A stretch of DNA of 43,627 nt from Duncaniella sp. GTDB taxonomy: Bacteria > Bacteroidota > Bacteroidia > Bacteroidales > Muribaculaceae. The position numbers were made by a program, and so were the translations under genes. The notes below the pieces were generated by a model, which had not been told where the DNA came from, ran no database searches, and saw nothing but the letters and a program-made list of their open reading frames with translations. Below, in pieces: positions 13,210 through 43,627 of this stretch. The stretch spans positions 475,827 through 519,453 of the forward strand of contig JAMPEV010000001.1 of the NCBI GenBank assembly GCA_023664955.1. Direction: 5' to 3'. Each line of letters opens with the position of its first letter. The stretch's first letter is position 1.

Positions 13210-13260
13210 TAGGGACGTACCAAGTCGCGTCCTCTCCAGCCGGGGTCGTCGAATCAAAAT
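13210..13260 (+). repeat. Dispersed intergenic repeat, copy A
   Basis: Begins TAGGGACGTACC and ends GTCGTCGAATCAAAAT. It shares the layout of the other copies: a dyad (here degenerate, ACGTACCAAGTCGCGT), then CTCTCCAGCCGGGGTCG, then an A-rich end. It lies 13 nt behind the eno stop codon, in the same orientation as eno, and ahead of the eno terminator. Confidence 0.75.
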
Positions 13261-13303
13261 AGAGCCCAGTATGGGCGATATTGTGGTATGACTCCCGACC
13301 ATA

Positions 13304-13354
13304 AAATAAGGCACTCAATCAGGCAGACAGCCCGAATGAGTGCCTTATTTTTTT
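13304..13354 (+). terminator. Intrinsic terminator after eno
   Basis: A 14-bp perfect stem (13304-13317 with 13337-13350, core GGCACTCA/TGAGTGCC) is followed by a T-run. It lies about 110 nt behind the eno stop, so the copy A repeat is part of the eno 3' UTR. Confidence 0.85.
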
Positions 13355-13391
13355 CCTAAATTTCCTCTAAATTTTACCCCCCCCCTAAATT

Positions 13392-13422
13392 TTGTAGAAT
13401 CCAACTAATTTTTATAGCTTTG
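13392..13422 (+). promoter_or_regulatory. Promoter (TTG, 20 nt, TAGCTTTG)
   Basis: TTG at 13392-13394, a 20-nt spacer, and TAGCTTTG at 13415-13422 form a full promoter. It rules out the ATG at 13420 as a start codon, because that ATG lies inside the -7 box, and supports the start at 13474. Confidence 0.8.
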
Positions 13423-13473
13423 CAACATATTTTTAAATCAATCATTTACACTAGTCACAACAGATCTCACGCC

Positions 13474-14163
13474 ATGAAACGACTTTCACTAATTTTCACC
13501 GCCGCTTTGTTCCTACAGTCATTCAGCGCCTCAGCTCAGAATGACGACACACGTTTGCAAACTCCCATTTCCATGTCCGTAACAATAGGAGCTAACCTTA
13601 ATACCGGCTCCTGTGGTGACCGGTCACTTTTCCCGACACGACCCGACGCTTGCACACAGTTTGACTGGCGTGTAAACGTGGCTTTCGCCAAGCATTGGTC
13701 AGCATTTATGGACTTCGGAATGTCTTTTTACAAAATTCAACCCTCCGACGAGCTCGGTGAAATAATATCTGATGCCATTGTTGAAATGTTCTTCCCCGGA
13801 GTCAGCCATATCCACCCGTCAATAGCTTTCGGAGCAGCATACGTGGCTCAAATAAGCCGATGGCAATTCTCACCACGCCTCGGTTTCGGATGGATGCACG
13901 TGCAGTCCAGAGACAAAAAGAAAAATGAGGTCCATTATCAATATAAAATCAAACCTCCATACATCAACCCGGCCATTTCCATTGGCTATCGTCTCTCAAA
14001 TGTATGCAGCCTGCTACTCGACGTAAGCTACCGTTGTCCATTAGCTGCGAGCAAGGGTTCAATAACCTATGGCACAGGTATCAGCGATACTAAAAATTTC
14101 AAATCCCACGGTTGGGGCAACGACCTCTCAATCTCCATCGGCACCCAACTCAACCTATTCTAA
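13474..14163 (+). CDS. Outer-membrane beta-barrel protein
   Basis: A 229-residue protein starting MKRLSLIFTAALFL with a signal peptide cleaved after SASAQ (about residue 22). The rest alternates amphipathic beta strands and short turns (ISMSVTIGANLN, WRVNVAFAKHWSAFMDFGMSF, INPAISIGYRL, SLLLDVSYRC), ending LSISIGTQLNLF with a terminal Phe. This is the usual form of a single-domain outer-membrane barrel in Bacteroidota; function unknown. Two cysteines (in VCSLLLDVSYRC) are 10 residues apart. The frame is open back to 13420, but the promoter covers that region. A repeat copy lies directly behind it. Confidence 0.78.
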   Translation: MKRLSLIFTAALFLQSFSASAQNDDTRLQTPISMSVTIGANLNTGSCGDRSLFPTRPDACTQFDWRVNVAFAKHWSAFMDFGMSFYKIQPSDELGEIISDAIVEMFFPGVSHIHPSIAFGAAYVAQISRWQFSPRLGFGWMHVQSRDKKKNEVHYQYKIKPPYINPAISIGYRLSNVCSLLLDVSYRCPLAASKGSITYGTGISDTKNFKSHGWGNDLSISIGTQLNLF

Positions 14164-14174
14164 CCCCTACAAAA

Positions 14175-14227
14175 GTAGGGACACACCATGGTGCGTCCTC
14201 CCAAATCGGGGTAGCCGCAACAAAATA
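14175..14227 (+). repeat. Dispersed intergenic repeat, copy B
   Basis: GTAGGGACACACCATGGTGC, then GTCCTCCCAAATCGGGGTAG and CCGCAACAAAATA. The palindromic core ACCATGGT is intact. It starts 12 nt behind the stop codon of the barrel gene, in the same orientation. Confidence 0.8.
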
Positions 14228-14228
14228 A

Positions 14229-14267
14229 AATCCTCCCTACTGTGGACATTACACCGCAGGGAGGATT
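14229..14267 (+). terminator. Hairpin behind copy B, possible terminator
   Basis: AATCCTCCCT (14229-14238) pairs with AGGGAGGATT (14258-14267), a perfect 10-bp stem. There is no T-run behind it, so termination is uncertain. The right arm contains GGGAGG, which could act as a ribosome-binding site for an ATG at 14271. Confidence 0.45.
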
Positions 14268-14298
14268 CTTATGTTCTATCTATACCGACTCTTATTTA

Positions 14299-14421
14299 AT
14301 GAACTTCAAAAAAATACTCTGTGACATTCTGCTTGTTCTCATATCTATGTCGTTCTTCATTCCGTTTGCCTTCATTCATAAGACATATCTGCTTTATGAT
14401 AACTGCGCATCCTGTCCCTAA
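14299..14421 (+). CDS. Possible 40-residue membrane protein with C-terminal CxxC
   Basis: A 40-codon frame starts MNFKKILCDILLVLISMSFF: a positively charged start, then one long hydrophobic segment through FIPFAFI (about residues 10-26). It ends in NCASCP, placing Cys36 and Cys39 in a CxxC pair two residues from the end. That is a plausible small membrane protein with the tail outside, but it has no recognised promoter and no homologue that I know. It is convergent with rhaB, 13 nt away. It could be chance: Lys-Lys plus a hydrophobic run is also what a noncoding T-rich stretch may give. Confidence 0.35.
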   Translation: MNFKKILCDILLVLISMSFFIPFAFIHKTYLLYDNCASCP

Positions 14422-14434
14422 TTATTTTTTACGT

Positions 14435-15913
14435 TCACTTAACAATCTTCACGAAGCGGCTATACGGCTCATCCCAAGCCTCTGGTGATTCAGGTTGGTA
14501 ATTTTCAGTCTTCACATTTTTGCGCACCACCTCACGCATAGCATCAAGCGAGCCAACATAGCCGGCAGCCTTAGCCTGCATGAGAATGTTGCCAAGAGCG
14601 GTACACTCCGCAGGACCTGCCACCACCGGCAGATTTATTGATGATGCTGTGAACTGATTGAGCAACGCATTGCGCGAACCTCCGCCAATTACATTCAAAC
14701 GAGAAATCGGTGCGTGTGCTACCTCTTTGAAGAGGTTGAGCACATGGCGATACTTAAGTGCAAGGCTTTCAAAGATGCAACGCACAAACTCTCCATGATT
14801 CTTAGGAGCTTCCTGATCTGTCGCTGCGCAATATTCCTCAATAGCCTTTGGCATATTGGCAGGAGCCACAAAGCAAGTGGCGTCTGTGTCGATGAAACAC
14901 TTGAATGCCGGCGCCTCAGCTGCCATTGCCACGAGCTGTGGATAAGTGTATGTAACACCCTCGGCCTTCCAACACTTCAGGCATTCTTCAAGCACCCACA
15001 TGCCTGTGATATTTTTTAGAAGTCGGATGGTATTCTCCACGCCGCCCTCGTTGGTCATATTGTACTCAAACGACGCATCGTTCACTACCGGAGCCGCGGT
15101 CTCAACACCCATCAACGACCATGTTCCACTACTGAGATATGCCCAGTCATTCCCCTCTGCAGGGATAGCCGCCACCGCCGATGCTGTGTCATGTCCGCCC
15201 ACGGCAATCACGGGGATAGCCGGTAGGCCTGTCTCAGCACAAAGTTGTGGTGTCAACACTCCCACTTTTGTACCCGGTTCTACTATCGGCCCGAATTTTG
15301 CGGCATCAAGCCCTACCGAGGCTAGTATCACGGGATCCAAGTCACGCTTTTTAGCATCAAGGATAGCACCGGTTGATGCGATGGTATATTCTGTAATAAG
15401 ATTGCCCGTAAGAAGATAAGAAATGATATCAGGAACAAAACCGATTTTCTCAGCCGACTTCATTGCGAATGTGTCGCGAAGTGCATAGAGCTGGAACACG
15501 GTGTTGAAGTCAAGTGTCTGAATTCCGGTGTGACCGTATAGCTCACGCTTGCTCATCACGTTTTCGAAGAAATCAGCGGTATTAGTCGGACAGAATCGGC
15601 TATCGCGATAAGCTACCGGCAGACCGATTAACGTACCGTCGGAAGCCACACATGCTATATCGACACCCCAAGTGTCAACAGCTACAGATATGGGGAGAAT
15701 GCCGCGACGTGCCACACCTTTCAGTCCATCCTTGATACTCTCATAAAGAGAATAGATGTTCCAATGTGACACTCCGTTAATCTTCATGATAGCATTAGGG
15801 AAACGGTTGATTTCTTCTGTTTCAAGACGTCCGTCTTCATGGAGAGTCGCAAGTATTGTGCGACCACTTGTTGCGCCTAAGTCAAAGGCCACAAAATGTG
15901 CAGGATAATTCAT
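14435..15913 (-). CDS. rhaB: Rhamnulokinase (FGGY carbohydrate kinase)
   Basis: A 492-residue kinase of the FGGY family that phosphorylates L-rhamnulose, the second step of L-rhamnose breakdown. The N-terminal AFDLGATSGRTILATLHEDG is the phosphate-1 ATP motif with the rhamnulokinase-typical ATSGR. VAVDTWGVDIACVASDGTL, the hinge region VGGHDTASAVAAIPA, YLSSGTWSLMGVE, and the C-terminal NVIGGGSRNALLNQFTAS also fit RhaB. No isomerase or aldolase gene is adjacent. It faces away from the GH28 pectinase over a shared 190-nt control region, which links rhamnose use to rhamnogalacturonan-type pectin breakdown. Confidence 0.92.
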   Translation of the reverse strand: MNYPAHFVAFDLGATSGRTILATLHEDGRLETEEINRFPNAIMKINGVSHWNIYSLYESIKDGLKGVARRGILPISVAVDTWGVDIACVASDGTLIGLPVAYRDSRFCPTNTADFFENVMSKRELYGHTGIQTLDFNTVFQLYALRDTFAMKSAEKIGFVPDIISYLLTGNLITEYTIASTGAILDAKKRDLDPVILASVGLDAAKFGPIVEPGTKVGVLTPQLCAETGLPAIPVIAVGGHDTASAVAAIPAEGNDWAYLSSGTWSLMGVETAAPVVNDASFEYNMTNEGGVENTIRLLKNITGMWVLEECLKCWKAEGVTYTYPQLVAMAAEAPAFKCFIDTDATCFVAPANMPKAIEEYCAATDQEAPKNHGEFVRCIFESLALKYRHVLNLFKEVAHAPISRLNVIGGGSRNALLNQFTASSINLPVVAGPAECTALGNILMQAKAAGYVGSLDAMREVVRKNVKTENYQPESPEAWDEPYSRFVKIVK

Positions 15914-16006
15914 ATTAATTTAAGGTGTTAATAATTTTCGTTGAAACTACCAAGTTGGTATTAGCATAAATCCATACATAATGTTGTCAGAATCCACTTA
16001 CCGACA

Positions 16007-16038
16007 CAAAAATAGCACAATTAAATTAAACTCACAAA
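16007..16038 (-). promoter_or_regulatory. rhaB promoter (TTTG, 20 nt, TATTTTTG)
   Basis: On the minus strand TTTG (16038-16035) is followed by 20 nt and TATTTTTG (16014-16007). The predicted leader to the start at 15913 is about 85 nt. The promoter lies within about 30 bp of the oppositely directed GH28 promoter. Confidence 0.7.
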
Positions 16039-16060
16039 CAGATTTTAATAATTTTTTCAT

Positions 16061-16068
16061 TACCTTTG
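16061..16068 (+). promoter_or_regulatory. GH28 gene promoter -7 box
   Basis: TACCTTTG, followed by CACTAC, fits TAnnTTTG. It lies 35 nt before the start at 16104. The -33 position has no clear TTG, which is compatible with activator dependence (inference). Confidence 0.6.
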
Positions 16069-16103
16069 CACTACATATTAATTAACAACAAGATTACATA
16101 ACC

Positions 16104-17513
16104 ATGAAAACTATGCTTATCGCTGTGGCCGCTTTGCTATGTGCTTCATTGCATATCAACGCCGCAAATACTGCCGAAAAGGCCTGGGCTGAGACATATC
16201 CTGCCATCGAAAAGCAGATTAAAGCCCCCGAATTCCGCGACAAGGAGTATAAACTTCTAGACTACGGCAAGAAATCTAACACCGAGGGATATCTCTACAC
16301 CGAACTTATTAATAAGGTGATTGACAAATGTTCCGCTGAAGGTGGAGGCAAGGTAGTGATTCCCGCCGGAACATGGCTCACCGGTCCCATCACCCTCAAA
16401 AACAATGTGAACCTCCATCTCGAGGAGGGTGCCACGCTGCTTTTCACCACTGACCTCAAGGAATATCCTCTGGTTTATACCCGTTGGGAGGGAATGGACT
16501 GCTACAATTACCAGCCCATGATTTATGCTTACGAGCAAGAAAACATCGCCATTACCGGCAAAGGGACCATCGACGGTGGCGCAAGTCGTCCCAACTGGTG
16601 GAGAATGTGCGGCGCGGTTAAGTATGGCTGGGAGGAAGGCATTACTTCTCAGCGTATCGGCCGACCTATTCTCATGGAGTGGAACGAAAATGGTGTCCCC
16701 GTGGAGCAACGCAAAATGGGCGACGGATACGGTATGCGTGTGCAGCTCGTTAACCCCGTGAAGTGTAAAAACGTTCTTATCGAGGATGTCACACTTCTCC
16801 GCGCTCCCTTCTGGGTCATACATCCCCTTCTCTGCGAGAATCTAACCGTGCGCGGCGTGCACGTGCAGAACGACGGTCCTAACGGCGATGGATGCGACCC
16901 GGAGTCATGCAAAAATGTGCTCATTGAAGGTTGCTATTTTGACACGGGCGATGACTGCATCGCTATTAAGAGCGGACGCAACCGCGACGGACGTATCGCT
17001 AATATCCCCACCGAAAATGTCATCGTGCGCAATTGCCACATGAAGAACGGACATGGCGGCGTGGTAGTCGGCAGCGAAATCTCCGGCGGCTTCAAGTACC
17101 TCTTCGTCGAGAATTGTGTGATGGACAGCCCCAACCTCGACCGTGTGATTCGCATCAAAACCAACAATTGCCGCGGTGGTGTGATTGAGAATATTTTTGT
17201 ACGCAATGTCACTGTGGGACAGTGCAATGAGGCTGTATTGAAAATCAACCTCGTGTATGAGCAACGCGAGAAATGCCAGCGAGCATTCCCACCGGTGGTA
17301 CAGAATGTTTACCTCGACAAGGTAACGTGTCAGGAAAGCAAGTTCGGCGTTAAAATCGAAGGCTTCGATGACATTTGCAACATTCGCAACATCGAGGTCA
17401 AGGACTGCACCTTCAACAATGTGGCCACCGGGGGTAATTCTATCACCGGTATGACCGAAGGTGTCCGCTTCATCAACCTCAAAATCAACGGTAAACTCTG
17501 TCCGGAAATGTAA
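16104..17513 (+). CDS. GH28 family polygalacturonase-type glycoside hydrolase
   Basis: A 469-residue secreted enzyme with a signal peptide (MKTMLIAVAALLCASLHINA). The right-handed beta-helix carries the GH28 active-site motifs in order: NGDGCDPES (about residue 259), TGDDCIAIKSGRN (about 281), NGHGGVVVGSE (about 314), and VIRIKTN (about 348). These give the catalytic Asp residues, the His and the Arg-x-Lys. The enzyme hydrolyses galacturonan or rhamnogalacturonan linkages; which of these cannot be decided from the sequence. Pairing with rhaB favours rhamnogalacturonan. Its stop codon overlaps the first bases of repeat copy C. Confidence 0.92.
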   Translation: MKTMLIAVAALLCASLHINAANTAEKAWAETYPAIEKQIKAPEFRDKEYKLLDYGKKSNTEGYLYTELINKVIDKCSAEGGGKVVIPAGTWLTGPITLKNNVNLHLEEGATLLFTTDLKEYPLVYTRWEGMDCYNYQPMIYAYEQENIAITGKGTIDGGASRPNWWRMCGAVKYGWEEGITSQRIGRPILMEWNENGVPVEQRKMGDGYGMRVQLVNPVKCKNVLIEDVTLLRAPFWVIHPLLCENLTVRGVHVQNDGPNGDGCDPESCKNVLIEGCYFDTGDDCIAIKSGRNRDGRIANIPTENVIVRNCHMKNGHGGVVVGSEISGGFKYLFVENCVMDSPNLDRVIRIKTNNCRGGVIENIFVRNVTVGQCNEAVLKINLVYEQREKCQRAFPPVVQNVYLDKVTCQESKFGVKIEGFDDICNIRNIEVKDCTFNNVATGGNSITGMTEGVRFINLKINGKLCPEM

Positions 17514-17528
17514 GGACGCACCATGGTA
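17511..17528 (+). repeat. Dispersed intergenic repeat, truncated copy C
   Basis: TAAGGACGCACCATGGTA retains the left half of the family dyad and then diverges. The TAA of the GH28 gene is its first three bases, so the repeat begins at the stop codon, in gene orientation. Confidence 0.6.
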
Positions 17529-17600
17529 TATCAAATTCGTCAAAAATTTTTTTAGTGAGAGACTGAACTGAATCGATTATCAGACTTATAGACGATAGAA

Positions 17601-17665
17601 TGTCAAAAATAAATGTGGAAACCATATCCCATTCTCATGGATGGTTTCCACATTTATTTTTGACA
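17601..17665. terminator. Long bidirectional terminator hairpin
   Basis: A perfect 25-bp stem (17601-17625 with 17641-17665) has a 15-nt loop and A/T-rich flanks on both sides of the core GTGGAAACCAT. It lies between the converging GH28 gene (+) and the lipoprotein gene (-). Confidence 0.85.
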
Positions 17666-17690
17666 ATCTTGATATTTAATCTTCCAACAC

Positions 17691-18419
17691 TCATTCAGGG
17701 TCGTGTTCAACCCTTACCCTGCGAACGGTGAAGCAACCATTATGATGAATTGCTAAATCCATGAAACCCTCAACCGGACCATACATGTAAGCATTGAGGA
17801 AATTATTTATTTGTTGAGTATAAATATGACTACCAGTAGTTTCTCTACCTGAACTACGTATATATACGGAGTCGGGTACAGGGATTTTAACAATTCTATA
17901 GTCCTCATCTTTAGATTTGGGTGAATAAATCGTTAGATTCTGAAAACAGGTGTCCAAATATTTGTCTTTGGCAACACATTCCACATACGTTACTTTTGCA
18001 CCTATTATCTTCCCGTTTTCATACAACCATGTATCAACATGCATGTTCATGTATTTTGATCCAATTCTTACTGCTGTTGCATACCTGGAAAAATCCTCTT
18101 TTCGAAAAATTTGATAGAAATACCCTGGCATTACAGAGTCGCCCATAGCAAAATGTTCACCTCGTTTCATCTTCGGCTCCATTAATAGAGTGGTACGGTC
18201 ATTTCCAACCTCATAAATTACACTCTGCCCTGAAACCGTTTTAAATTTATTTTCATAATCGATGTATACATCAGACCACCCAAGTAGAGTACGCCCATAA
18301 TAGTATTTTCGTAAATCCAACTTTACTGATCCTTCGGGAGCATCTATTGGGTATATCGGATTATACACCTCTTCCTCATCTCGGCATGCTCCGATAAAGC
18401 AGCACAAGGTGAGAATCAC
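17691..18419 (-). CDS. Secreted lipoprotein, DUF5036-like
   Basis: A 242-residue product from a GTG start, with a lipobox (CCFIGAC, Cys12) that predicts a lipid-anchored surface or periplasmic protein. The region KLDLRKYYYGRTLLGWSDVYIDYENKF, followed by PGYFYQIF and AVRIGSKYMN, recalls the Bacteroidales family DUF5036 (from memory, unsearched; function unknown). The start is odd: the GTG leaves no basic n-region. An ATG at 18439 gives an ideal signal peptide (MRNIF...) but is one base out of frame, so one extra T in the run at 18424-18427 would restore it. It is the last gene of a minus-strand set and is A+T-richer than its surroundings. Confidence 0.6.
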   Translation of the reverse strand: MILTLCCFIGACRDEEEVYNPIYPIDAPEGSVKLDLRKYYYGRTLLGWSDVYIDYENKFKTVSGQSVIYEVGNDRTTLLMEPKMKRGEHFAMGDSVMPGYFYQIFRKEDFSRYATAVRIGSKYMNMHVDTWLYENGKIIGAKVTYVECVAKDKYLDTCFQNLTIYSPKSKDEDYRIVKIPVPDSVYIRSSGRETTGSHIYTQQINNFLNAYMYGPVEGFMDLAIHHNGCFTVRRVRVEHDPE

Positions 18420-18499
18420 AAATAAAATATATTTCTCATTATTAATTGAATTAATTAATGTATAATAATAGATAGGTTAAACCCGGTAGAAAATCTTAT

Positions 18500-19312
18500 T
18501 CAAGGAATCCTTGATGGATCTCCACCGTATAATTTCTCCAAATCAGATCTCAGTGGACTATAAAAATTAATAACTACATCTTGGGGAGGATTATGATAGT
18601 ATGTTGCAGGGAATCCCGGATCGTACCCATATGTCACCGGATATGCCCTTGTCTCATAGACATCAAACTCCTTACCATGATAATTGAATTTCATATCCAC
18701 AGATACGAATGCAATCAGGCGACCACAAAGAATAGTACCCCAGTCGAAGTAGAAATTTTTTGTGTCATCGATATTCAACATCTCAGGTGGAAATACTGTC
18801 GTGTAAGGAAAGAATCCTGTCGGAGGGATAGAATCTAAGGTCATATCTGTGTCCTTATATAAGGGTTTTAACCAATGAGACCAATACACATCATCAAAAT
18901 TTGAGCCATATTGTTCCCCATTCAATTTCGAGCAATTGAAGAAACTCACATGTGTCTTATATGACTTCAAATACGGCTCAACTGCAGGATTAAAGATGAC
19001 TTCTACTCCCTTATGCCCAAAATGAGGCATCTCTAATTCAGCTTCCAGATACACTCCACTACCTGCTTTGGTTGATGCTTCTTTTAACGGTTCAATTATA
19101 TCATCAATCAATTGGCTTCTATGAACGGTAATAGAATCCATATTAATCATTTTGTTGGGTAAAGGTCTTGTTGAAATCATGTATGGTATTAAATGAGAGA
19201 TTCGAGTATAATAAACCTTTGGTCTACTTTTAATAGTCCATACGCCCAAATTCTTATAACCATAGCCCTCACTTAGGGTTACTAAAGAACTTTTATCAGT
19301 ACTTATTTTCAT
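18500..19312 (-). CDS. C-terminal part of a secreted protein, probably a gene fragment
   Basis: A 270-residue frame starting MKISTDKSSL without any signal peptide. The segments NLGVWTIKSRPKVYYTR, FYFDWGTILCGRLIAFVSVD, and YETRAYPVTYG with NPPQDVVINFYSP look like the C-terminal domain of large Bacteroidales lipoproteins that I recall as having a signal peptide and an N-terminal domain like that of the neighbouring gene. It overlaps that gene by 17 nt in another frame. The likely history is an internal deletion plus a frameshift that split one gene in two. An alternative is a genuine cytoplasmic protein, which is less plausible given the content. Function unknown. Confidence 0.5.
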   Translation of the reverse strand: MKISTDKSSLVTLSEGYGYKNLGVWTIKSRPKVYYTRISHLIPYMISTRPLPNKMINMDSITVHRSQLIDDIIEPLKEASTKAGSGVYLEAELEMPHFGHKGVEVIFNPAVEPYLKSYKTHVSFFNCSKLNGEQYGSNFDDVYWSHWLKPLYKDTDMTLDSIPPTGFFPYTTVFPPEMLNIDDTKNFYFDWGTILCGRLIAFVSVDMKFNYHGKEFDVYETRAYPVTYGYDPGFPATYYHNPPQDVVINFYSPLRSDLEKLYGGDPSRIP

Positions 19313-19661
19313 CAAGTCCTTTCTTTTTAAACGTATGAAACAACATGTCCCAACCGTCCGATTTACGAATGTCGTGGGTAAAATCAGATGTTAAGGCCGT
19401 AGATGCACCGTCACACCATGGCGCTGTTACAGAATGAGTACCACTTCGATTAAGCTCGATTTCAGTAACATTCTCCCAATCTGATATCAATTTAGGATTC
19501 GTTAGCGATACATTGTCATCGTCGGCAGAAATTGAACGAGACAATGTAGAAGCTGTAGGCTGTGGCTCATCAATCGCACCATCCTTACAAGCATTCAACG
19601 CACATAGCAAAAACAAGATTGAAGTCATTGTCCACAAGCGGTTCTTTAACCTTTTTTCCAT
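19296..19661 (-). CDS. N-terminal part of a lipoprotein, probably truncated
   Basis: A 121-residue frame with a clear lipoprotein signal peptide: MEKRLKNRLWTMTSILFLLC, then ALNACKDG with the lipid-accepting Cys25. The mature part has ISDWENVTEIELNRSG, TAPWCDGAST and DGWDMLFHTFKKKGLDENKY and then stops abruptly. Longer Bacteroidales relatives, as I recall them, continue from this point for several hundred residues. The next frame downstream (18500-19312) resembles their far C-terminus. The gene has a full promoter at 19768-19799 and probably heads a three-gene transcript ending near 17690. Confidence 0.55.
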   Translation of the reverse strand: MEKRLKNRLWTMTSILFLLCALNACKDGAIDEPQPTASTLSRSISADDDNVSLTNPKLISDWENVTEIELNRSGTHSVTAPWCDGASTALTSDFTHDIRKSDGWDMLFHTFKKKGLDENKY

Positions 19662-19767
19662 TGTAATTTTTCATAATAAACTTTGTTACTGTTGTTTTGA
19701 TTGGTTCAAGACCATGTCATCAACGCGAGAGGCAAATCAGTTAAATCCCTTTGGCAATTTTCAGTCG

Positions 19768-19799
19768 CAAATATAGAACCTGAGGATGAATTTTCCAAA
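19768..19799 (-). promoter_or_regulatory. Promoter for the lipoprotein cluster (TTTG, 20 nt, TATATTTG)
   Basis: On the minus strand TTTG (19799-19796), a 20-nt spacer, and TATATTTG (19775-19768). The leader to the start at 19661 is about 100 nt. Confidence 0.7.
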
Positions 19800-19875
19800 T
19801 ATTTAAGCATGTTTTTTGGCTATGTTTTTCGTGAAGATGTATTCGATTGATGTCGACATTTTGTCCTGTTATTGC

Positions 19876-19911
19876 GAAATTTACGAAATTTATGAAAATT
19901 ATGAAAATCCA
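19876..19911. repeat. Four 9-bp A-tract tandem units
   Basis: Four units starting with G at 19876, 19885, 19894 and 19903: GAAATTTAC, GAAATTTAT, GAAAATTAT, GAAAATCCA. Regularly spaced A-tracts can bend DNA. The array sits about 50 bp upstream of the pnp -7 box and about 75 bp from the lipoprotein promoter. The rest of the 478-nt gap between these genes holds only the two promoters and the pnp leader. Confidence 0.55.
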
Positions 19912-19957
19912 CCAAATTATTTCTCGCAAATACAATTATTTATTGGATAAAAATGAC

Positions 19958-19965: not shown

Positions 19966-20032
19966 CAAAATGAAATAAACCGAACGATTTCAAGCGTTAA
20001 AAACTTTTGACTAACCATTGAATCTACAACAA

Positions 20033-20139: not shown

Positions 20140-22428
20140 ATGAATGTAATTAAAAAAACCATCGCGCTGCCCGACGGTCGCACCATCACCCTGGAGACCG
20201 GCAAATTAGCCAAGCAAGCCGATGGAGCGGTAGAACTGCGAATGGGCAACACAATGCTGCTTGCCACAGTCGTTACAGCTAAGGAAGCAGGAGAGGGCGT
20301 CGACTTTATGCCTCTCCAAGTTGAGTACAAAGAGAAATTTTCCTCTAACGGACGCTTCCCCGGCGGTTTTCTCAAACGTGAAGGTCGTGCGAGCGACTAT
20401 GAAATTCTGACCGCACGTCTTGTTGACCGCGTGCTCCGTCCACTTTTCCCTGACAATTACCATGCTGACACTTTCGTGCAGGTGACCATGTATTCATCTG
20501 ACGGTGTCGACATGCCCGATGCTCTCGCAGGGCTCGCTGCTTCTGCAGCCCTCGCCGTGAGCGACATACCCTTCAACGGTCCCATCTCTGAAGTGCGTGT
20601 GGCTCGTGTGGATGGTGAATTTGTCATCGACCCTACTTTCGAGCAACTCGAAAAAGCCGACATGGAACTTATGGTAGGTGCGACCTACGACAACATCATG
20701 ATGGTAGAAGGCGAAATGAACGAAGTTTCTGAAGCCGACCTACTCGCTGCCCTCCGTGCTGCTCATGATGCTATCAAAGTTCAATGCAAGGCACAGATGG
20801 AGCTTGCCGAAGAAGTTGGTTCAACCGTTAAGCGCGAATACTGCCACGAAACCAACGACGAAGACCTCCGCAAGGATGTGCATGACAAGTGCTACGACAA
20901 AGCCTACGCTATCGCAAAGGCCGGATGCGCTGACAAGCACTGGCGTCAGGACAGCTTCGACAAAATTTGTGAAGAATATATCGAATCACTTCCCGAAGAA
21001 GAACGTGAGGAGAAAACCCCGCTCGTCAAGCGCTATTACCACGATGTTGAGAAAGAGGCTATGCGCCGCTGCGTTCTCGACGAAGGTATCCGTCTTGACG
21101 GTCGTAAGACTACTGAAATCCGCCCCATCTGGTGTGAGGTTGATTACCTACCGGGTCCTCACGGATCAGCAGTATTCACCCGTGGTGAAACTCAGTCACT
21201 CGCCACTGTTACACTCGGCACCAAGCTCGACGAGAAGATCCTTGACGATGTTCTAAATCAAGGCCGCGAGCGTTTCCTTCTCCACTACAACTTCCCTCCC
21301 TTCTCAACCGGCGAGGCTAAGCCCGTGCGTGGCGTAGGTCGCCGTGAAGTTGGACATGGTAACCTTGCCCACCGCGCCCTCAAGCGCATGTTCCCCGATG
21401 ATTTCCCCTACGTATGCCGCATCGTCAGCGACATTCTCGAATCTAACGGTTCATCATCAATGGCCACCGTATGCGCCGGCACTCTTTCACTCCTCGACGC
21501 AGGTGTGAAGATGAAACGCCCCGTCAGCGGTATCGCTATGGGTCTTATCTCTGACGGCGAAAAGTACGCTATCCTTTCCGACATCCTCGGAGATGAGGAC
21601 CACCTCGGCGACATGGACTTCAAGGTTACAGGTACTCGAGAAGGCATCACAGCAACACAGATGGACATCAAGTGTGACGGCCTAAGCTACGAAATTCTCG
21701 AACGCGCCCTCAACCAGGCTCGTGAAGGTCGTCTCCACATCCTCGATAAAATCCAGGAAACAATCCCCGCACCGCGTGAGGACTACAAACCTCACGTGCC
21801 TCGCATCGTCACCATGATTATCCCGAAGGATCTTATCGGCGCCGTGATTGGCCCTGGCGGAAAGATTATTCAGGGTATCCAGGAAGCAAGTGGTGCAACT
21901 GTTTCTATCGACGAAATTCCCGAAGGCGGTTATATCGAAGTTGCTGCTGCCAACAAGGATTCTATCGATAAGGCCCTTGAGATGATTAACGCCATCGTAG
22001 AACTACCTGAAGAAGGTAAGGTATACCAGGGTACTGTACGTTCAATTCTCGACTTCGGTGCATTCGTTGAATTCATGCCCAACCGCGACGGTCTGCTCCA
22101 CATATCTGAAATCTCGTGGGATCGTCTCGAAAACATGGAAGCTTCTGGCTTGAAGGAAGGTGACAACGTAGAGGTCAAACTCATCGAAATCGACAAAAAG
22201 ACCGGCAAGTACCGCTTGTCAATGCGAGCTCTTCAGCCCAAACCCGAAGGCTATGTTGAACGTGAACGTGCACCCCGCGGCGACCGTAACGACCGTGGTC
22301 CTCGTCGCGACCGTAACGACCGCAACGACCGTGGTCCTCGCCGCGATAATGGCGACCGTCCCCGCCGTGATGACCGTCCCCGCCGCGACAACAACGGCCC
22401 TCGCCGCGATAATAACGACCGTGACTAA
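20140..22428 (+). CDS. pnp: Polyribonucleotide nucleotidyltransferase (PNPase)
   Basis: A 762-residue exoribonuclease that degrades RNA 3' to 5' with phosphate. The two RNase PH domains are clear: the first with [22 protein letters not shown], the second with [19 protein letters not shown] and [25 protein letters not shown] domain ([20 protein letters not shown]) and an S1 domain ([15 protein letters not shown]) follow. After residue 709 comes a tail of about 50 residues made almost only of Arg, Asp, Asn, Gly and Pro in GPRRD-like units, which probably adds nonspecific RNA or protein contacts. The start [16 protein letters not shown] fits the family. It is monocistronic, ending at the terminator at 22514. 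Confidence 0.96.
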
Positions 22429-28940: not shown

Positions 28941-28986
28941 CCGTTTCGGCGACCCCAATCGGGGCAGACGTACCATGGAACGTCCA
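28941..28986 (-). repeat. Dispersed intergenic repeat, copy D (reverse)
   Basis: Read on the minus strand: GGACGTTCCATGGTACGTC, then TGCCCCGATTGGGGTCGCCG and AAACGG. The layout matches copies A and B, with compensating changes in the dyad (GT..AC in place of GC..GC). It is the only copy oriented against the gene it follows (cydB) and against the next gene. Confidence 0.75.
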
Positions 28987-29046
28987 CACCTCTCGCACGC
29001 GATTGCTAAATCGGATGATGTTTGCCAAAATCTGTTAAACTGAAAA

Positions 29047-37218: not shown

Positions 37219-37231
37219 ACTTGCATAGAAT

Positions 37232-39388
37232 ATGAAATTCAAAGCTATCATGGCCTCAGCAGCAGTTGCCGGTACGCTTGCCGCCTGTCAATCAGCAGGT
37301 CAGAAGGATGCCGACATAATCGATAAGCCCGAGTATACGACCACTGACGGAGTGTTTAATATCGATGCACTTGAGGCATTGGGCCGCGTATCCTCAATCC
37401 AGGTATCGCCGGAGGCTCAGAAGGTGCTTTTCGGTATCTCCTACGAAAGTGTGGCGAAGAACAAGAGCAACAATGACCTCTACACCATGGACTTCAATGG
37501 CGAGAACCTCCAGCGTATCACAAAAACGGCATCCTCAGAAGGCAACTTCGTGTGGATCAACAATGGCGAGAAAATTGCCTTCATATATCCAGCCAACGGA
37601 GTACCGCAAGTATGGGTGATGAATGCTGACGGTTCAGGTCGCAAACAGATTACTGATGTCGAGGCTGGTGTTCAAGGATTTGTTTTCTCACCCGATGAGA
37701 AGCGGATAGTGCTGATTTCCACGCTCAAATATTCACGCAATGCCAAGGATTTGTATCCCGATCTCCCCGATGCGACAGGTCGTGTGATAGACGACATTAT
37801 GTATAAACATTGGGACGAGTGGGTAACTGAAATACCTCATCCTTTCATCGGCGAATTCGATGGCTCAAAGGTTACAAATGTTGTTGACATCATGGCCGAT
37901 GAACCACGATACGAATCCCCGATGAAACCATTCGGCGGTATCGAGTCATTTGCATGGTCGCCTGACAGCAGGTCACTTATATACGTGTCGCGCAAAAAGG
38001 ATGGAATGGACTATGCTATCTCCACCAATTCCGACCTCTATCAATATAACCTCGAGGATAAGAGTACTAAGAACCTCACCGAAGGCATGATGGGTTACGA
38101 TACCAATCCGGCATATTCACCCGACGGTAAGTATGTGGCATGGCTCTCGATGGAGCATGACGGATATGAAAGTGACAAGAACCGTATTTTCATTCTCGAT
38201 ACTTCTACCGGTGAAAAGACTGATCTCACTGCCAATTGGGACTACACAGTTGATGCAATTTCATGGGCACCAGACAGCCGTTCAATCTACTTCCTTGCCT
38301 ATCGCGATGGTGTGAAGCCGATTTTCAATATGGCACTTGACGGAACCGTAAGCGTAATTGCCCAGGGTGAATGTGATTATGATGCAGTTGCTCCGCTTGC
38401 TGATGGGACAGTTATTGCTACCCGCCACTCCATGCTCTATCCTAATGAAATATTCAAGGTGGAAAATGGCGGTGAAGTTAAGCAGATTTCTAATGTCAAC
38501 ACAGAGCTTCTCGCATCGCTCAAGATGCCAAAGGTGGAAAGAAATATGGTACCGACCACTGATGGTAAGCAGATGCTTGTATGGGCTGTTTATCCACAAG
38601 ATTTTGATAGTACAAAGACATATCCCGCAATACTTTATTGTCAGGGGGGTCCGCAGTCGGCCGTAAGCCAGTTCTGGAGCTATCGTTGGAATCTCGCGCT
38701 GATGGCTGCTAACGGATACATTGTAATCGCGCCTAACCGACGAGGCCTGCCTGGTTTTGGTACTGAATGGAACGCACAGATTTCGGGTGATTATGGAGGC
38801 CAGAACATGCGAGATTACTTGAGTGCAGTTGATTATATGAAGCAGTTCCCGTTTATTGATGGTAGCCGCATCGGTGCCACAGGTGCAAGTTATGGCGGTT
38901 TTTCAATTTACTGGCTTGCCGGTAATCATGAAAAACGTTTTGCTGCTCTCCTTGCTCATGCCGGAATCTTTAACATGGAGGCCCAATATCTTGAAACAGA
39001 AGAGATGTGGTTTGCCAACTGGGATATGGGGGGCGGAGCTGTCAATGCGCCGGCCAACAGTGCGGATGACCCGACCTACGGTGCATTCTGGCGCAAGGAT
39101 AACCCCATAGCACAGCGTACATTTGCACTTTCACCACACCGCTTTGTGGACAAATGGGATACCCCGATTATGATTTCACATGGCGAATATGACTATCGCA
39201 TTCTTTCCTCACAGGGTCAGATGGCATTTAATGCCGCAAAACTTCGGGGCATACCTGCGGAAATGGTAATCTTCCCCGATGAGAATCACTGGATACTCAA
39301 GCCTCAGAACGCTATAATGTGGCAGCGTCTATTCTTCCGGTGGTTCGACCGCTGGTTGAAACCGCAAGCAGCAGAGGAAACAAAGTAA
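37232..39388 (+). CDS. S9 family (prolyl oligopeptidase-type) peptidase lipoprotein
   Basis: A 718-residue serine peptidase. The N-terminus is a lipoprotein signal peptide (MKFKAIMASAAVAGTLAACQ, Cys19). A WD-like beta-propeller follows (ISYESVAKNKSNNDLYTMDF, FAWSPDSRSLIYVSRK, PAYSPDGKYVAWL). The catalytic alpha/beta hydrolase domain has Ser553 in GATGASYGGFSIYW, Asp in HGEYDYRILSSQG and His in PDENHWIL. It probably trims peptides in the periplasm or at the cell surface, like other DPP-type enzymes of the phylum. It has moderate codon bias and sits just behind prs. Confidence 0.92.
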   Translation: MKFKAIMASAAVAGTLAACQSAGQKDADIIDKPEYTTTDGVFNIDALEALGRVSSIQVSPEAQKVLFGISYESVAKNKSNNDLYTMDFNGENLQRITKTASSEGNFVWINNGEKIAFIYPANGVPQVWVMNADGSGRKQITDVEAGVQGFVFSPDEKRIVLISTLKYSRNAKDLYPDLPDATGRVIDDIMYKHWDEWVTEIPHPFIGEFDGSKVTNVVDIMADEPRYESPMKPFGGIESFAWSPDSRSLIYVSRKKDGMDYAISTNSDLYQYNLEDKSTKNLTEGMMGYDTNPAYSPDGKYVAWLSMEHDGYESDKNRIFILDTSTGEKTDLTANWDYTVDAISWAPDSRSIYFLAYRDGVKPIFNMALDGTVSVIAQGECDYDAVAPLADGTVIATRHSMLYPNEIFKVENGGEVKQISNVNTELLASLKMPKVERNMVPTTDGKQMLVWAVYPQDFDSTKTYPAILYCQGGPQSAVSQFWSYRWNLALMAANGYIVIAPNRRGLPGFGTEWNAQISGDYGGQNMRDYLSAVDYMKQFPFIDGSRIGATGASYGGFSIYWLAGNHEKRFAALLAHAGIFNMEAQYLETEEMWFANWDMGGGAVNAPANSADDPTYGAFWRKDNPIAQRTFALSPHRFVDKWDTPIMISHGEYDYRILSSQGQMAFNAAKLRGIPAEMVIFPDENHWILKPQNAIMWQRLFFRWFDRWLKPQAAEETK

Positions 39389-39414
39389 AATAATACGTTT
39401 TATAGATAATTGTT

Positions 39415-39449
39415 GCGACGCACCATGGTGCGTCCTCTCCAATCCGGGC
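39415..39449 (+). repeat. Dispersed intergenic repeat, copy E
   Basis: GCGACGCACCATGGTGCGTC, then CTCTCCAATCCGGGC. The palindromic core is perfect over 18 bases. The right end of the family is missing; a 20-bp hairpin begins immediately in its place. It lies 26 nt behind the S9 peptidase, in gene orientation. Confidence 0.8.
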
Positions 39450-39492
39450 ACCCATTTCCTCATCACCGCTCCGCGGTGATGAGGAAATGGGT
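39450..39492. terminator. Perfect 20-bp hairpin between converging genes
   Basis: A 20-bp perfect stem (39450-39469 with 39473-39492) closes on a 3-nt loop, with CACCGC/GCGGTG nearest the loop. It abuts repeat copy E and lies between the S9 peptidase (+) and DUF695 (-) genes. There is no T-run, so termination by this hairpin is likely but not certain. Confidence 0.65.
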
Positions 39493-39497
39493 TATCA

Positions 39498-39971
39498 TTA
39501 TTTAATTTCCGCTTCCGACATTTCGGCATATTCCTCCCAACCGGGGTCATTTTCAGTATAAATAGTGAGTGGCAATAGAGGAAAATCCGCGAGAGTTTCA
39601 TTGAGTTTACGCCCGAAGATATGAGTGCTAAGGGTATAGAATATCCAATCCCTTTGATTATCCCCGGTGAAAATACCAGTCAACACAGCAACGGGATCCC
39701 TGTGAAACTCTTTCTGGAGAGCGTCCTGAACCTTCTCCATCAGTTCGGCGGTCTGTAAATCGGGCATCCCAGTGGAATCACCCTCATATTTCCATGTCAC
39801 CTCTACCCTGACACTGAAGCGAGGGTTACTGCGAAACGATTCCACATCTTTCCTCCCGGTCACCATAATAAGTCGTCCCGACTCGCTTTCGGTTGGTGAA
39901 GTCCACCAACTACCCCTTTCTACGGATACTTCACTACTGTTTGGGTTATTATTCTTCTTCATCATCTTCAA
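39498..39971 (-). CDS. DUF695-like protein
   Basis: A 157-residue soluble protein without signal peptide. SWWTSPTESESGRLIMVTGR, the RFSVRVEVTWKY strand, LQTAELMEKVQDALQKEF, and VLTGIFTGDNQRDWIFYT match my memory of DUF695 (PF05117), whose function is unknown. The first 23 nt overlap the end of the upstream DUF6155-like gene in another frame, so the two are translationally coupled. A start at 39965 (the second Met pair) is also possible. Confidence 0.65.
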   Translation of the reverse strand: MKMMKKNNNPNSSEVSVERGSWWTSPTESESGRLIMVTGRKDVESFRSNPRFSVRVEVTWKYEGDSTGMPDLQTAELMEKVQDALQKEFHRDPVAVLTGIFTGDNQRDWIFYTLSTHIFGRKLNETLADFPLLPLTIYTENDPGWEEYAEMSEAEIK

Positions 39972-40482
39972 AATGATTTAGTGTATAAAGTAGATATTTC
40001 TTTAGCTGATTCTTAAAAAAGATGCGATCTCTCATCGATTCAATCGACTTCCTAAACTGCCGTTCATAGTCATCAAGCAGCCCCCGCTTTTTCATAAACA
40101 TCAAAGTCTCCCTGAAAAACTTGTCAACCGCCTCTTCCACACTCGCTTGGAGAGATGTTTCAGAACCCAGTTTACAGAACTCTAATACTATATAAGCCCT
40201 CAGTTCAGCTATCGCCTCATCCCCCGGCTCGAGAATAGAAAACTTTTTAAGCATTGCCCTAATTTTAGGCATACGAGGATGATGATTATGGCGAGTATAT
40301 CGGTGTATTTCCTTGAGTATAGGCTTCTTATACTCATCAATTTTAGCTGATATATCGGGATTAGCGAAAAAATCAAGCAACTCCTTCGCCTCCTTACTCT
40401 TGGAATACACGTCAATGATAAGCTCCTTGAGCTCCGATGCCTCAAATCCCGCAATCGCCTTCCGTACAGTAGCTTTGCTCAT
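39949..40482 (-). CDS. DUF6155-like protein
   Basis: A 177-residue, helix-rich, charged cytoplasmic protein. MSKATVRKAIAGFEASELKELIIDVYSKSKEAKELLDFF followed by YKKPILKEIHRY and a long C-terminal helix-rich part resembles DUF6155 (recall, unsearched), a Bacteroidota family without known role. It ends in an acidic tail HFEDDEEE. It heads a two-gene transcript with DUF695 from a -7 box at 40609-40616. Confidence 0.65.
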   Translation of the reverse strand: MSKATVRKAIAGFEASELKELIIDVYSKSKEAKELLDFFANPDISAKIDEYKKPILKEIHRYTRHNHHPRMPKIRAMLKKFSILEPGDEAIAELRAYIVLEFCKLGSETSLQASVEEAVDKFFRETLMFMKKRGLLDDYERQFRKSIESMRDRIFFKNQLKKYLLYTLNHFEDDEEE

Positions 40483-40608
40483 TTAGATGAATATGACTAA
40501 ATACTAACTTGTTAACAACTCATGGCGCAAATGGTTGGAGGGAGCGTGACCCTGTTGCAAAAGACCGCATATCCCAACAATCACAAGAAATGGCACCAAT
40601 CCTCCATA

Positions 40609-40616
40609 CAAAGGTA
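40609..40616 (-). promoter_or_regulatory. Promoter -7 box for DUF6155-DUF695
   Basis: Minus strand TACCTTTG, with a leader of about 120 nt to 40482. It is directly downstream of the serpin terminator, so the two transcripts are separate. Confidence 0.5.
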
Positions 40617-40620
40617 TACA

Positions 40621-40680
40621 AAAATCACCTAATCCATGCCACTTACCCGAACAAAATTCCGAAAGTGGTGGGGTTAGGTG
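40621..40680 (-). terminator. Terminator of the C10-like/serpin operon
   Basis: On the minus strand two helices, 10 bp (40671-40680 with 40626-40635, one G-T) and 6 bp (40663-40668 with 40639-40644), are separated by a small internal loop. TTTTT follows (40625-40621). Confidence 0.75.
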
Positions 40681-40716
40681 TTAATCCGTTGGAAGTAATC
40701 TCGATTACATAACCAA

Positions 40717-41970
40717 TCAGAGTTCCTCAACTTTTCCTGCACATATAATCGCTCCTGTACTGAACTCTTCTATTAAAAATATAAATGGGCGATTAATATG
40801 AATGTATTCTATATGTGAGGGAATAAAACTCGAAAGATCATTAACAATGCTTGTCGTTGATGCGAAAATAGCCCCTGACTCATCAACCTCAATCGAACTG
40901 CTTTGCCCAATCTTCAAACTCTCAATCTTACTGTCAGTCATATTGTTCAGATTAGGTGCTGCACAACTCAATCCCAGACCTTGTAATGCATCATTAAGGT
41001 CCGGTTCATACTTTATGTTAAATTTGGGCAACGAAAATTTCACTTCTAATTCACGAGACGTGTTTTTAAGGGCACACCATCTATTAAAATCGAATTCTCG
41101 AATTATATCATTGATGTCGTAGCCTTCATCTGCCATGATTACAAACATTGAAAAGGCCCTATTCCCATATTTCAGCTCAAGCATTGTGGTGTTGTCATCA
41201 CCCCCAACTCTTGTTATCATATAATCCATACGATTCATTGTCGGCACTTTAACCTCTCTCACACCCTTATTAAAAAAGGTCATCGCTTTTGTATCCTTTT
41301 CGTCCAAAGAAAATCTCCACGTTCCTTTAAAATAAGTTGCATCAAGAAGAACGAAATTAGTCCACCCGGAAATATCATTTGAATTGAAATAATTCACTAT
41401 TTTACCCTTTGTCGATTCTTTAATCCAATTGTTAATTTCGTCAACCGTTTTGACAGATGACATATCCACTTGCTTTGAACGGGCATTATAATTCGACCCT
41501 ATCAAATCCAAATAGTGTTGCTTAACCGGGAAGTTCTTGTCATACCATAAGGAATTTGAAATCTTGAGCTCCGTTTTCTTATCAGCGACCCTCAAAGCGT
41601 CATAAAGATAACGGTTCAAATTGGTAAGTTCCTCAATCGATGATTCGTTGTCGAGGTGAAGAATTTTAAGAATAGATTCAAGTGTACCATCTGTGGCGCC
41701 ACATGCGAGCATGGAAAGATTTCTTGCCATACTCAGTGGTGAAATCACAAAATTAGATTTTCCTTCCAATGCAGCCTGCTCATTCACGACCTTAAGGATG
41801 TCAAAAGAAAATTTCATCTCATTATCAATGAGATCCTTTTGGGCACGTGACAAAGGGATTTCCTCACGTCCTATCTCATCGATTTCAGGTTCATTGTCTG
41901 ACGATGTGCAACTACACATTGTAATAGCAAAGACAACAGCACATTTGATTAAGCACTGTGTTGTTTTCAT
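40717..41970 (-). CDS. Serpin-family lipoprotein
   Basis: A 417-residue serine/cysteine-protease inhibitor fold. The start MKTTQCLIKCAVVFAITMCSC gives a lipoprotein signal with Cys21; the longer open frame to 42051 would overlap the upstream gene and lack a signal. The serpin core is clear: SNFVISPLSMARNLSMLACGATDGTLE, NSLWYDKNF, INNWIKESTKGKIVNYF, ATYFKGTW, and NRPFIFLIEEFSTGAIICAGKV. The hinge is IEVDESGAIFASTTSI: the P12 position is Phe where inhibitory serpins have Ala or another small residue. P1 cannot be assigned. It lies 25 nt behind the C10-protease-like gene. Inhibition is therefore uncertain. Confidence 0.88.
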   Translation of the reverse strand: MKTTQCLIKCAVVFAITMCSCTSSDNEPEIDEIGREEIPLSRAQKDLIDNEMKFSFDILKVVNEQAALEGKSNFVISPLSMARNLSMLACGATDGTLESILKILHLDNESSIEELTNLNRYLYDALRVADKKTELKISNSLWYDKNFPVKQHYLDLIGSNYNARSKQVDMSSVKTVDEINNWIKESTKGKIVNYFNSNDISGWTNFVLLDATYFKGTWRFSLDEKDTKAMTFFNKGVREVKVPTMNRMDYMITRVGGDDNTTMLELKYGNRAFSMFVIMADEGYDINDIIREFDFNRWCALKNTSRELEVKFSLPKFNIKYEPDLNDALQGLGLSCAAPNLNNMTDSKIESLKIGQSSSIEVDESGAIFASTTSIVNDLSSFIPSHIEYIHINRPFIFLIEEFSTGAIICAGKVEEL

Positions 41971-41995
41971 AACTGATTTATTAATTTTAGATTGG

Positions 41996-42709
41996 TTATA
42001 ATATATTATACATCTTAGCAGTTGACCTGTCATAAACAGTATCAAGCACATTCCATTCCATACACCACGGATCTATTTTGTAATTGTCACAGTAGCCGCT
42101 TTGCCCCCAATTCATTTGGTAAAATGTTTTTGTAGAAACGACCTCTTCAACGATAATTTCGCCAAATAAGTTTTTTAGCTCATCAATTGATATATCTGCT
42201 GGTATATCAGGCCACTCCGCATCTTCCGGATAAATCGTTGTGGTGTAATAGTTGTAGAATTTTGTCCGTTCTGATTCAAAATAATCTATGAGGAAAGTAT
42301 GACCACTTTTATCACCAGGATAATGATATATCCATGAAACCACAGGATGTCCTTTCCTTAAAACGCTTTTTACATCCTCTGAATTGAGATTTTTAATCTC
42401 TATGTCAAGTTGTGTTTGACTATTAAAGAATTCCATGCTGTTTTTGGATATTGTGTTAGAACTAGAGCCATCACTTTTACCATCATTGCCATAATAGATT
42501 TTCCCATATTTCATTTTTAATGATACTCCGATATATCCCAAAAAGATAGCAGTAGGTCTCATATAGTCCGGTTGTCCACATCTATCAGGATAAGAATTAA
42601 ATGTCATAGATTCAAATTCATTATAAGGCTCGTCCAAAATCGCATTCTGTGAACATGAAGCGAATATGAAAGCAAACAAGAAGAATAAAGGATGAATTTT
42701 GTAAATCAT
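41996..42709 (-). CDS. C10 (streptopain)-like lipoprotein lacking the catalytic-Cys segment
   Basis: A 237-residue protein with a lipoprotein signal peptide (FLFAFIFASCS, Cys19). It then passes almost directly into the second half of a C10 peptidase: TAIFLGYIGVSLKMKYG, a Ser-rich loop, HPVVSWIYHY, SGHTFLIDYF with the catalytic-type His137, and FYQMNWGQSGYCDNY with Asn200-Trp201. The nucleophile block of the family (GC-x-ATA-x-x-Q) and the propeptide are absent. Cys44 is in another context, and the usual GWG reads GQS. It is most likely a pseudo-protease or an internally deleted remnant. It is first in an operon with the serpin. Confidence 0.75.
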   Translation of the reverse strand: MIYKIHPLFFLFAFIFASCSQNAILDEPYNEFESMTFNSYPDRCGQPDYMRPTAIFLGYIGVSLKMKYGKIYYGNDGKSDGSSSNTISKNSMEFFNSQTQLDIEIKNLNSEDVKSVLRKGHPVVSWIYHYPGDKSGHTFLIDYFESERTKFYNYYTTTIYPEDAEWPDIPADISIDELKNLFGEIIVEEVVSTKTFYQMNWGQSGYCDNYKIDPWCMEWNVLDTVYDRSTAKMYNIL

Positions 42710-42731
42710 AAGAATTTATTTGTAAATTATG

Positions 42732-42763
42732 CAAATTTAATACACAATAACAACCATATCAAA
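42732..42763 (-). promoter_or_regulatory. Promoter of the C10-like/serpin operon (TTTG, 20 nt, TAAATTTG)
   Basis: On the minus strand TTTG (42763-42760), a 20-nt spacer, and TAAATTTG (42739-42732). The leader to 42709 is short, about 16-20 nt. Confidence 0.8.
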
Positions 42764-42876
42764 TTAATTTAGTTAAAAAACACAAACACACTATAAGTCT
42801 CACTTCATTCTCACTTCATAATCTTCTATTTCTGATATATTTGACTTTTTCGCTCTCTTTCGCTCTAATCCCCCCT

Positions 42877-42884
42877 TATCTTTG
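42877..42884 (+). promoter_or_regulatory. Promoter -7 box for the right-edge gene
   Basis: TATCTTTG followed by CATC fits TAnnTTTG, with a leader of about 20 nt. A short direct repeat TTTCGCTCT (42849-42857 region, twice) lies in the -33 area, and no correctly spaced TTG is seen. Confidence 0.55.
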
Positions 42885-42912
42885 CATCAAAAATCCAATC
42901 CCCCTCGAAGCT

Positions 42913-43627
42913 ATGAAAAAAATCCTCATCACAACCAACACCCCCACACGCCGGCCAGCGCCGGCCGTTTGGGTATATAGCTTCGAGAAATACCTCCGAC
43001 GTAAGCTCTCCGAACGCGAACGTTTAATCATCACTATCCTCGAACGCCAGCACCACCGCCAACTGAAAGGCCGACTTCCACAGCCCCAACTCGTCATCGA
43101 CCCTCCCGACTTCGACTCCTCAGCACTCCTGAAGAACTACCTCAACTACCGGCTCGACAAACTCAACAACCCCGACATCCGGACCGTCGTGTTCGCTCCC
43201 GGGACAGAATACAAAGCCCCGAACCTCAACCCCCAACCAAAGAAAAAGGAACTCATCCGCTACTGCAACTACCGTGCCATCAACCGTTTCCGTGGAAGTA
43301 CCCTCGGCTTCATGCTCCTCCTCAACATCCAGGACGCCGAAGACAGCTCACCTTTCTACTCACATCCCGTCAGGTTCCAGCAGCTCTGCCGAGTCCTCTT
43401 CCCGATGCAAAGCCCATTCGGCTTCCTCATCATGCATCTCCGGCTCCCCGACAATGTGGCAAGCGTAGCAAAATTCATCCAGCACCTACCCCCGGCCATC
43501 AAACGCCACATCGCCACCAAACCCAAAGCCCCCGACCCGCCCCCACCCGTCACAGTCGTAACCATAGCCTATGTCCTCCAAACCATCGGACAGGCCATAA
43601 CCACCTACCACCCAGTAGGGACGCTCC
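42913..43627 (+). CDS. Unrecognised partial protein, C-rich coding strand
   Basis: An open frame of at least 238 codons that starts MKKILITTNTPTRRPAPAVW and continues past the window end without a stop. I do not recognise the family. It is basic and Pro-rich, with a helical stretch YLRRKLSERERLIITILERQ, a middle part NYRAINRFRGSTLGFMLLLN, and a Pro-rich linker KAPDPPPPVTVV near residue 212. There is no signal peptide or membrane helix. Third positions are mostly C and the coding strand is strikingly poor in G. A -7 box lies 29 nt upstream. The final bases match the left end of the dispersed repeat, so the frame may end within a repeat copy. Confidence 0.6.
   Translation, partial: MKKILITTNTPTRRPAPAVWVYSFEKYLRRKLSERERLIITILERQHHRQLKGRLPQPQLVIDPPDFDSSALLKNYLNYRLDKLNNPDIRTVVFAPGTEYKAPNLNPQPKKKELIRYCNYRAINRFRGSTLGFMLLLNIQDAEDSSPFYSHPVRFQQLCRVLFPMQSPFGFLIMHLRLPDNVASVAKFIQHLPPAIKRHIATKPKAPDPPPPVTVVTIAYVLQTIGQAITTYHPVGTL
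43615..43627 (+). repeat. Left end of a further dispersed repeat copy (F), cut by the window
   Basis: GTAGGGACGCTCC equals the first ten bases of the family consensus (GTAGGGACGC) and then continues out of the window. It lies in the frame of the right-edge gene. Confidence 0.4.

Follow-up and report, generated by a model that had tools for sequence, protein, structure and literature searches.

GTAG-tagged REP elements in a Duncaniella genome, most likely spread by a RAYT of the kind that survives there as a truncated remnant

Repeats that combine a GTAG foot with a short-looped hairpin and are associated with RAYT genes make up the GTAG REP superfamily (Di Nocera et al. 2013, PMC3733652). In the sections of that source available to us, stems are 5-13 bp long with complementary variants, head-to-head dimers mostly lie 20-100 bp apart, gaps between genes are occupied with a convergent and a unidirectional bias, feet can give TAG stop codons, and the GTAG repeat lists name phyla other than Bacteroidetes. 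The REPtrons of TnpA-REP subclass 2.4 (RAYT group 4) are characterized, in the available portion of PMC6006769, by the protein motifs NH[IFV]H, WQ and YIxNNP, a GTAG foot on a stem with three basal G-C pairs, in-frame REP pairs within the gene between the HuH and Tyr motifs, and double-foot GTAG...CTAC copies. A biochemical study (PMC8266576, also available in part) covers RAYT groups 2 and 3; in it the E. coli REP/BIME elements with TnpA-REP group 2 have a GTAG foot and inverted pairs, and need a bulged stem.

The repeats described here, from a genome of Duncaniella sp. (Muribaculaceae), belong to this already known kind, GTAG-tagged REPs, and were most likely spread by a RAYT. As far as those sections of PMC3733652 go, they share with the superfamily the foot, the short loop, the RAYT association, complementary variants of a stem that is here 8 bp long, the inverted pairs, both gap biases and the stop-codon feet, but have an extra tail of ~25 nt in which a second dyad is weak (62% of cells paired). 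The likeness to subclass 2.4, within the portion of PMC6006769 available, extends to the NHxH and WQ motifs, the GTAG foot, the G-C stem base, the in-frame REP pairs and a double-foot copy; the differences are a Tyr motif of YIxxN followed by P, A, V or I, two rather than three invariant basal G-C pairs, and the truncation of the RAYT in the source genome. Foot and inverted pairs also recall the E. coli elements of PMC8266576, although the stem in this family is perfectly palindromic, and the CGTC REP superfamily has a different foot. No description of a REP/RAYT system in Muribaculaceae or Bacteroides was found in the open-licence papers searched.

The source genome (G000) has 2,176,073 bases in 21 contigs and is 82.69% complete, with ~17% missing. 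The window, that is the whole 43,627-nucleotide stretch of DNA analysed, is C11:475827-519453; one of its proteins has its best relative, among the best 80 of 595, at 92% identity in a Muribaculaceae MAG. Window copies were scored at E <= 0.5 with a covariance model of 51 positions (R1), whose coordinates were converted to window numbering for copies A, B, D and E. The copies are:

REP copy A, 13208-13258, + strand: R1 50.3 bits; with a decayed foot (ATAG) and a broken upper stem.
REP copy B, 14174-14224, + strand: R1 68.9 bits; single stem mismatch.
REP copy C, 17510-17529, + strand: truncated head, below the R1 listing at E <= 0.5.
REP copy D, 28941-28988, - strand: R1 32.1 bits; antisense to both neighbouring genes.
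REP copy E, 39411-39461, + strand: R1 51 bits; tail enters a perfect inverted repeat at 39450-39492.
REP copy F, 43615-43627, + strand: 13 bases of its start, lying in frame in the terminal part of a multi-copy orphan gene; the contig beyond it is a run of N.

All six places named in the first-pass annotation are present in the sequence, and copy F does lie in an open frame. The annotation had five of the six closely following a gene in that gene's direction, which is true of four: copies A, B and E lie 10, 10 and 22 bp past a stop codon, and copy C overlaps the stop of the ORF at 16104-17513, whose TAA is supplied by the copy's own foot, GTAA; copy D is on the opposite strand and copy F in its open frame. 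The core palindrome, at three or fewer mismatches, has five matches in the window at three places (two of these on both strands), whereas 100 shuffles average 0.11 and never exceed 2. Most of the window dyads are decaying, with two broken pairs and one wobble in copy A, one mismatch each in B and E and several in C. Copy D had been said to keep its dyad through paired changes; one pair is indeed compensated (C-G to T-A), but another is broken (T-T) and a third is G-T, so the argument is weak when taken alone. Two further features of the window may be recorded: long inverted repeats at 13303-13351 and 39450-39492, just downstream of copies A and E, resemble transcription terminators, and the ORF at 20140-22428 has 27- and 36-nt direct repeats near its 3' end (22264-22415).

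Across the genome the unit consists of the GTAG foot, an 8-bp stem that pairs perfectly, a 4-nt loop and the tail, present singly or as inverted pairs. The stem reads GGACGCAC/GTGCGTCC or, as a paired variant, GGACGCTC/GAGCGTCC. An alignment of 34 of 44 extracted copies, omitting one near-duplicate and nine with a different tail or lacking the usual one, reads GTAG, GGACGCACCATGGTGCGTCC, then TCCCCAATCGGGGTCGCCGAATCA, and its foot columns are at least 90% conserved. The palindrome occurs at 52 sites with three or fewer mismatches, while a reversed control pattern has none. R1 places at least 61 full-length copies at E <= 0.0044, which with an exact head at C11:140979 makes at least 62 entries; they include the double-foot copy (GTAG...CTAC, C14:25334-25399), counted on both strands, and the fragment C14:23497-23530. 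This is a lower bound, because 150 of 840 candidates were scored. Exact 24-nt heads account for 26 entries, 17 of A type (two being the double-foot copy) and nine of T type, the two subtypes differing by a paired change at one stem pair (A-T in 19 of the 34 aligned copies, T-A in 11).

The first-pass annotation noted no transposase nearby, which is right for the window but not for the genome, where a RAYT remnant lies among the repeats:

RAYT remnant, C14:23464-23733: 73-aa fragment found with the A3 profile.

It is the sole match in G000 of A3, a profile of five short RAYTs (one of which, from G006, seems frameshifted at its N-terminus), and covers only model positions 1-86 of 181 (E 7.4e-23). 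The A2 profile, built from long RAYT-like proteins, also reached short diverged RAYTs and gave one weak match there (C14:23515-23712, E 4.6e-4). The remnant frame ends ...VEVPLSVVMPN and runs into REP tail sequence, cut just before the HUH histidine; exact REP heads flank it on both sides, and the surrounding copies are inverted. In the five aligned short RAYTs the motifs PNH[IVF]H and WQ are present and the Tyr motif is variable; the remnant ends ahead of all three. No intact RAYT was found in the 82.69% complete G000. Relatives in G019, G023, G010, G008 and others are open, several others have an internal stop, and the genes of G019 and G023 each contain two inverted GTAG hairpins, in frame and placed between the HuH and Tyr motifs. 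Against REP_Tyr_transpos (NF047646), four intact relatives score 47-58 bits (E 1e-12 to 1e-15), under the NCBI cut-off of 80, and the 73-aa fragment has no match.

Three other leads on the enzyme were set aside. PF01797, as a transposase test, has no match in G000 or in G019, which is the genus's other genome with many copies of this stem, and would have implied 'REPs without a transposase'. A Y1 transposase at L172, beside a GTAGGGACGCAC pair, was rejected as the cognate enzyme because it has the motif YIASQKEHH, in agreement with subclass 1.2, described in the portion of the literature available as lacking REPs, and because it has inverted flanks of its own. The long RAYT-like genes of G009, G020, G021 and G023 lack any GTAGGG head bearing the hairpin of this family in their fetched surroundings.

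The tie between hairpins and RAYTs is clearest in comparison. In the genus, where 17 short-RAYT loci were taken from 14 genomes (long RAYT type matches excluded), GTAG hairpins lie inside the gene or within 400 bp at 14 loci and are missing from that range at three (G010, G026 and G016). The wider family has a RAYT in 28 further genomes; loci were obtained for 26, none of them used in any model, and by the same rule 22 have hairpins and four (G087, G104, G048 and G119) do not. The rule finds a hairpin in 1.8% of random 1340-bp windows from the loci of 80 named relatives and at 1 of 20 other Y1-transposase loci. With a generic hairpin model, for which at most 150 candidates were scored per genome, the median is 44 matches in the 14 short-RAYT genomes versus 2 in the 13 without (p = 1.3e-4), ten of the 14 having contributed a hairpin to the model; the four outside it have 71, 4, 14 and 114 (p = 0.009). 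Two genomes free of short RAYTs are exceptions, with 23 (G018) and 27 (G024).

Stems differ between species by paired changes, and the distance between the N-terminal parts of the RAYTs correlates with that between stems (Mantel r 0.39, p = 2e-4) over 30 loci, some near-identical, drawn from 33 picked rows that all have hairpins. The eight RAYTs closest to the G000 remnant, at 53-62% identity, include those of G069, G093 and G098, all with the GGACGCAC stem. Short RAYTs are found in 32 of 99 family genomes and 14 of 30 genera, and the hairpin pattern with its middle pair left free in 16 of 198 family genomes and nine of 30 genera. In G033, 13 REP matches all point the same way and all lie on the RAYT-bearing contig (C30, L268).

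That a RAYT moved the REPs is what we infer as most likely. The enzyme would be a single-strand transposase of HUH type, similar to subclass 2.4 (group 4), that binds foot and hairpin in single-stranded DNA, cuts next to the hairpin and joins the REP elsewhere, a chemistry suggested by measurements on other RAYT groups (in the available part of PMC8266576). Copies would then be retained mainly where they do little harm, just past stop codons, sometimes supplying the stop. Because the sole RAYT found in G000 is cut off ahead of its catalytic motifs, the family has probably lost its mobility there, barring an intact gene in the ~17% that is missing.

Compensation in the stem is clear only at the scale of genome and family. 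Among 12 gap-free aligned hairpin types, chosen by hand with 24-nt forms kept (nine beside RAYTs, three dispersed), 96 of 96 stem cells are paired; both sides have changed in six of the eight stem pairs, and GTAG and the two basal G-C pairs are invariant. In 500 shuffles, four of the five measures are never matched and the fifth is matched 24 times. Such compensation cannot separate RNA from single-stranded DNA.

Position was analysed for the 54 of 62 entries well inside fetched stretches, with genes called by hexamer scoring. Fifty are intergenic (10 in convergent, 34 in tandem and six in divergent gaps) and four are within called ORFs, while REP-free gaps in the same stretches amount to 1111 bp convergent, 15,673 bp tandem and 7496 bp divergent. 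Convergent gaps are favoured over divergent ones (p = 5e-6), and in 25 of the 34 tandem entries, counted by eye, the repeat has its GTAG end directed towards the 3' end of the upstream gene (p = 0.009); both p values are optimistic because clustered entries were counted singly. Fifteen of the 54 have a gene 3' end no more than 25 bp away, and the foot overlaps a stop codon in three copies (C11:131403, C14:23855 and C15:16922) as it does in window copy C. There was one readable empty site, where the L016 orthologue of the gene at 11902-13197 ends alike with no GTAGGG hairpin behind it; no insertion boundary was seen. The first-pass proposal of a REP-like mobile element at gene 3' ends is supported by the 62 model entries, the GTAG foot, the inverted pairs, this excess in convergent gaps and downstream of genes, the compensatory stems and the RAYT remnant among the repeats.

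The same convergent and same-strand bias, with the 15 entries so close to gene 3' ends, is also what one would look for if the copies were selected 3'-end RNA elements, serving mRNA stability or transcription ends and maintained as RNA hairpins rather than by transposition. We consider this very unlikely: this stem is present in just five of 27 genus genomes, stems vary between genomes in a way that tracks the RAYT, four entries fall in ORFs and six in divergent gaps, and the repeat has no Rfam match. Individual REP copies may have taken on an RNA role later.

Inverted pairs with GTAG outward, spaced 73-78 bp, occur at three sites in G000, where most copies are single; G019 has ten at 76-77 bp among the places listed. 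So nearly constant a length would suit non-autonomous MITEs of a DDE transposon, the pairs being ~100-bp elements with palindromic terminal repeats and the single copies their decayed ends. Yet singles are the majority, the three G000 pairs, read by themselves without empty sites, share no target duplication, and HUH RAYTs have linked hairpins at 14 of 17 genus loci and 22 of 26 family loci, which together leave this origin scarcely credible. At four G019 loci (L133, L141, L147 and L155) the ends beyond the foot are also inverted (TGATTWGCAG...), and the G019 pairs therefore lie within a longer palindrome. Spread by a RAYT, the reading we prefer, does not account for this outer inverted sequence, nor for the variable tail.

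Some REP copies have multiplied by another route, with the gene that carries copy F:

Multi-copy orphan gene, 42913-43627 (open at the window end), + strand: carries copy F.

This gene has seven loci in G000 including that of the window, each with a REP at its 3' end, of which the window holds the first 13 bases. Elsewhere in the 27 genus genomes it has 16 matches in G017, eight in G012, three in G003 and two in G002, and the copies viewed have no REP at the matching place; inside the genomes with the gene, units of ~750-960 bp are repeated. From the REP at all seven G000 loci, its absence in relatives and the repeated units it follows that some REP copies multiplied together with the orphan gene. 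The flank after its stop is conserved and contains a GCCGTGC/GCACGGC inverted repeat; a REP precedes each of the eight such flanks compared, though the stretches were selected for holding one. Searches of Pfam, PHROGs, PDB sequences, viral contigs and plasmids returned nothing useful that would make the gene one of phage or plasmid origin or of known fold, and it is possibly an undescribed mobile cassette. A fuller scenario is improbable: the repeat would have disrupted its own RAYT, and the REPs left orphaned would have been adopted by this gene as another undescribed mobile cassette, a unit of one gene and ~800-900 bp starting at window position 42913. At L245, L249 and L247 the frame past the gene's TAG stop encodes a conserved peptide, RYAVLRxPKxNRTA, which in G002 is read with no intervening stop, making readthrough or a moved stop possible; at L247, in G002, another GTAG hairpin, GTAGGGCGGGGGCGTGCCCCCGCC, lies ~50 bp downstream of the gene.

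That all copies multiplied solely as passengers of longer duplications such as this unit has next to no probability, despite the REP or REP start at the 3' end of seven of seven orphan gene loci and ~180-215 bp common to L098, L111 and L115, since matches of at least 120 bp between different loci of the fetched stretches involve only nine loci, and passenger duplication is therefore limited to a minority of copies.

An abundant REP/RAYT system is now placed in the Muribaculaceae, common gut bacteria. The 36 RAYT loci from a single genus and the family around it, whose own hairpins differ in sequence, form a natural series on how the RAYT of this group reads its hairpin.
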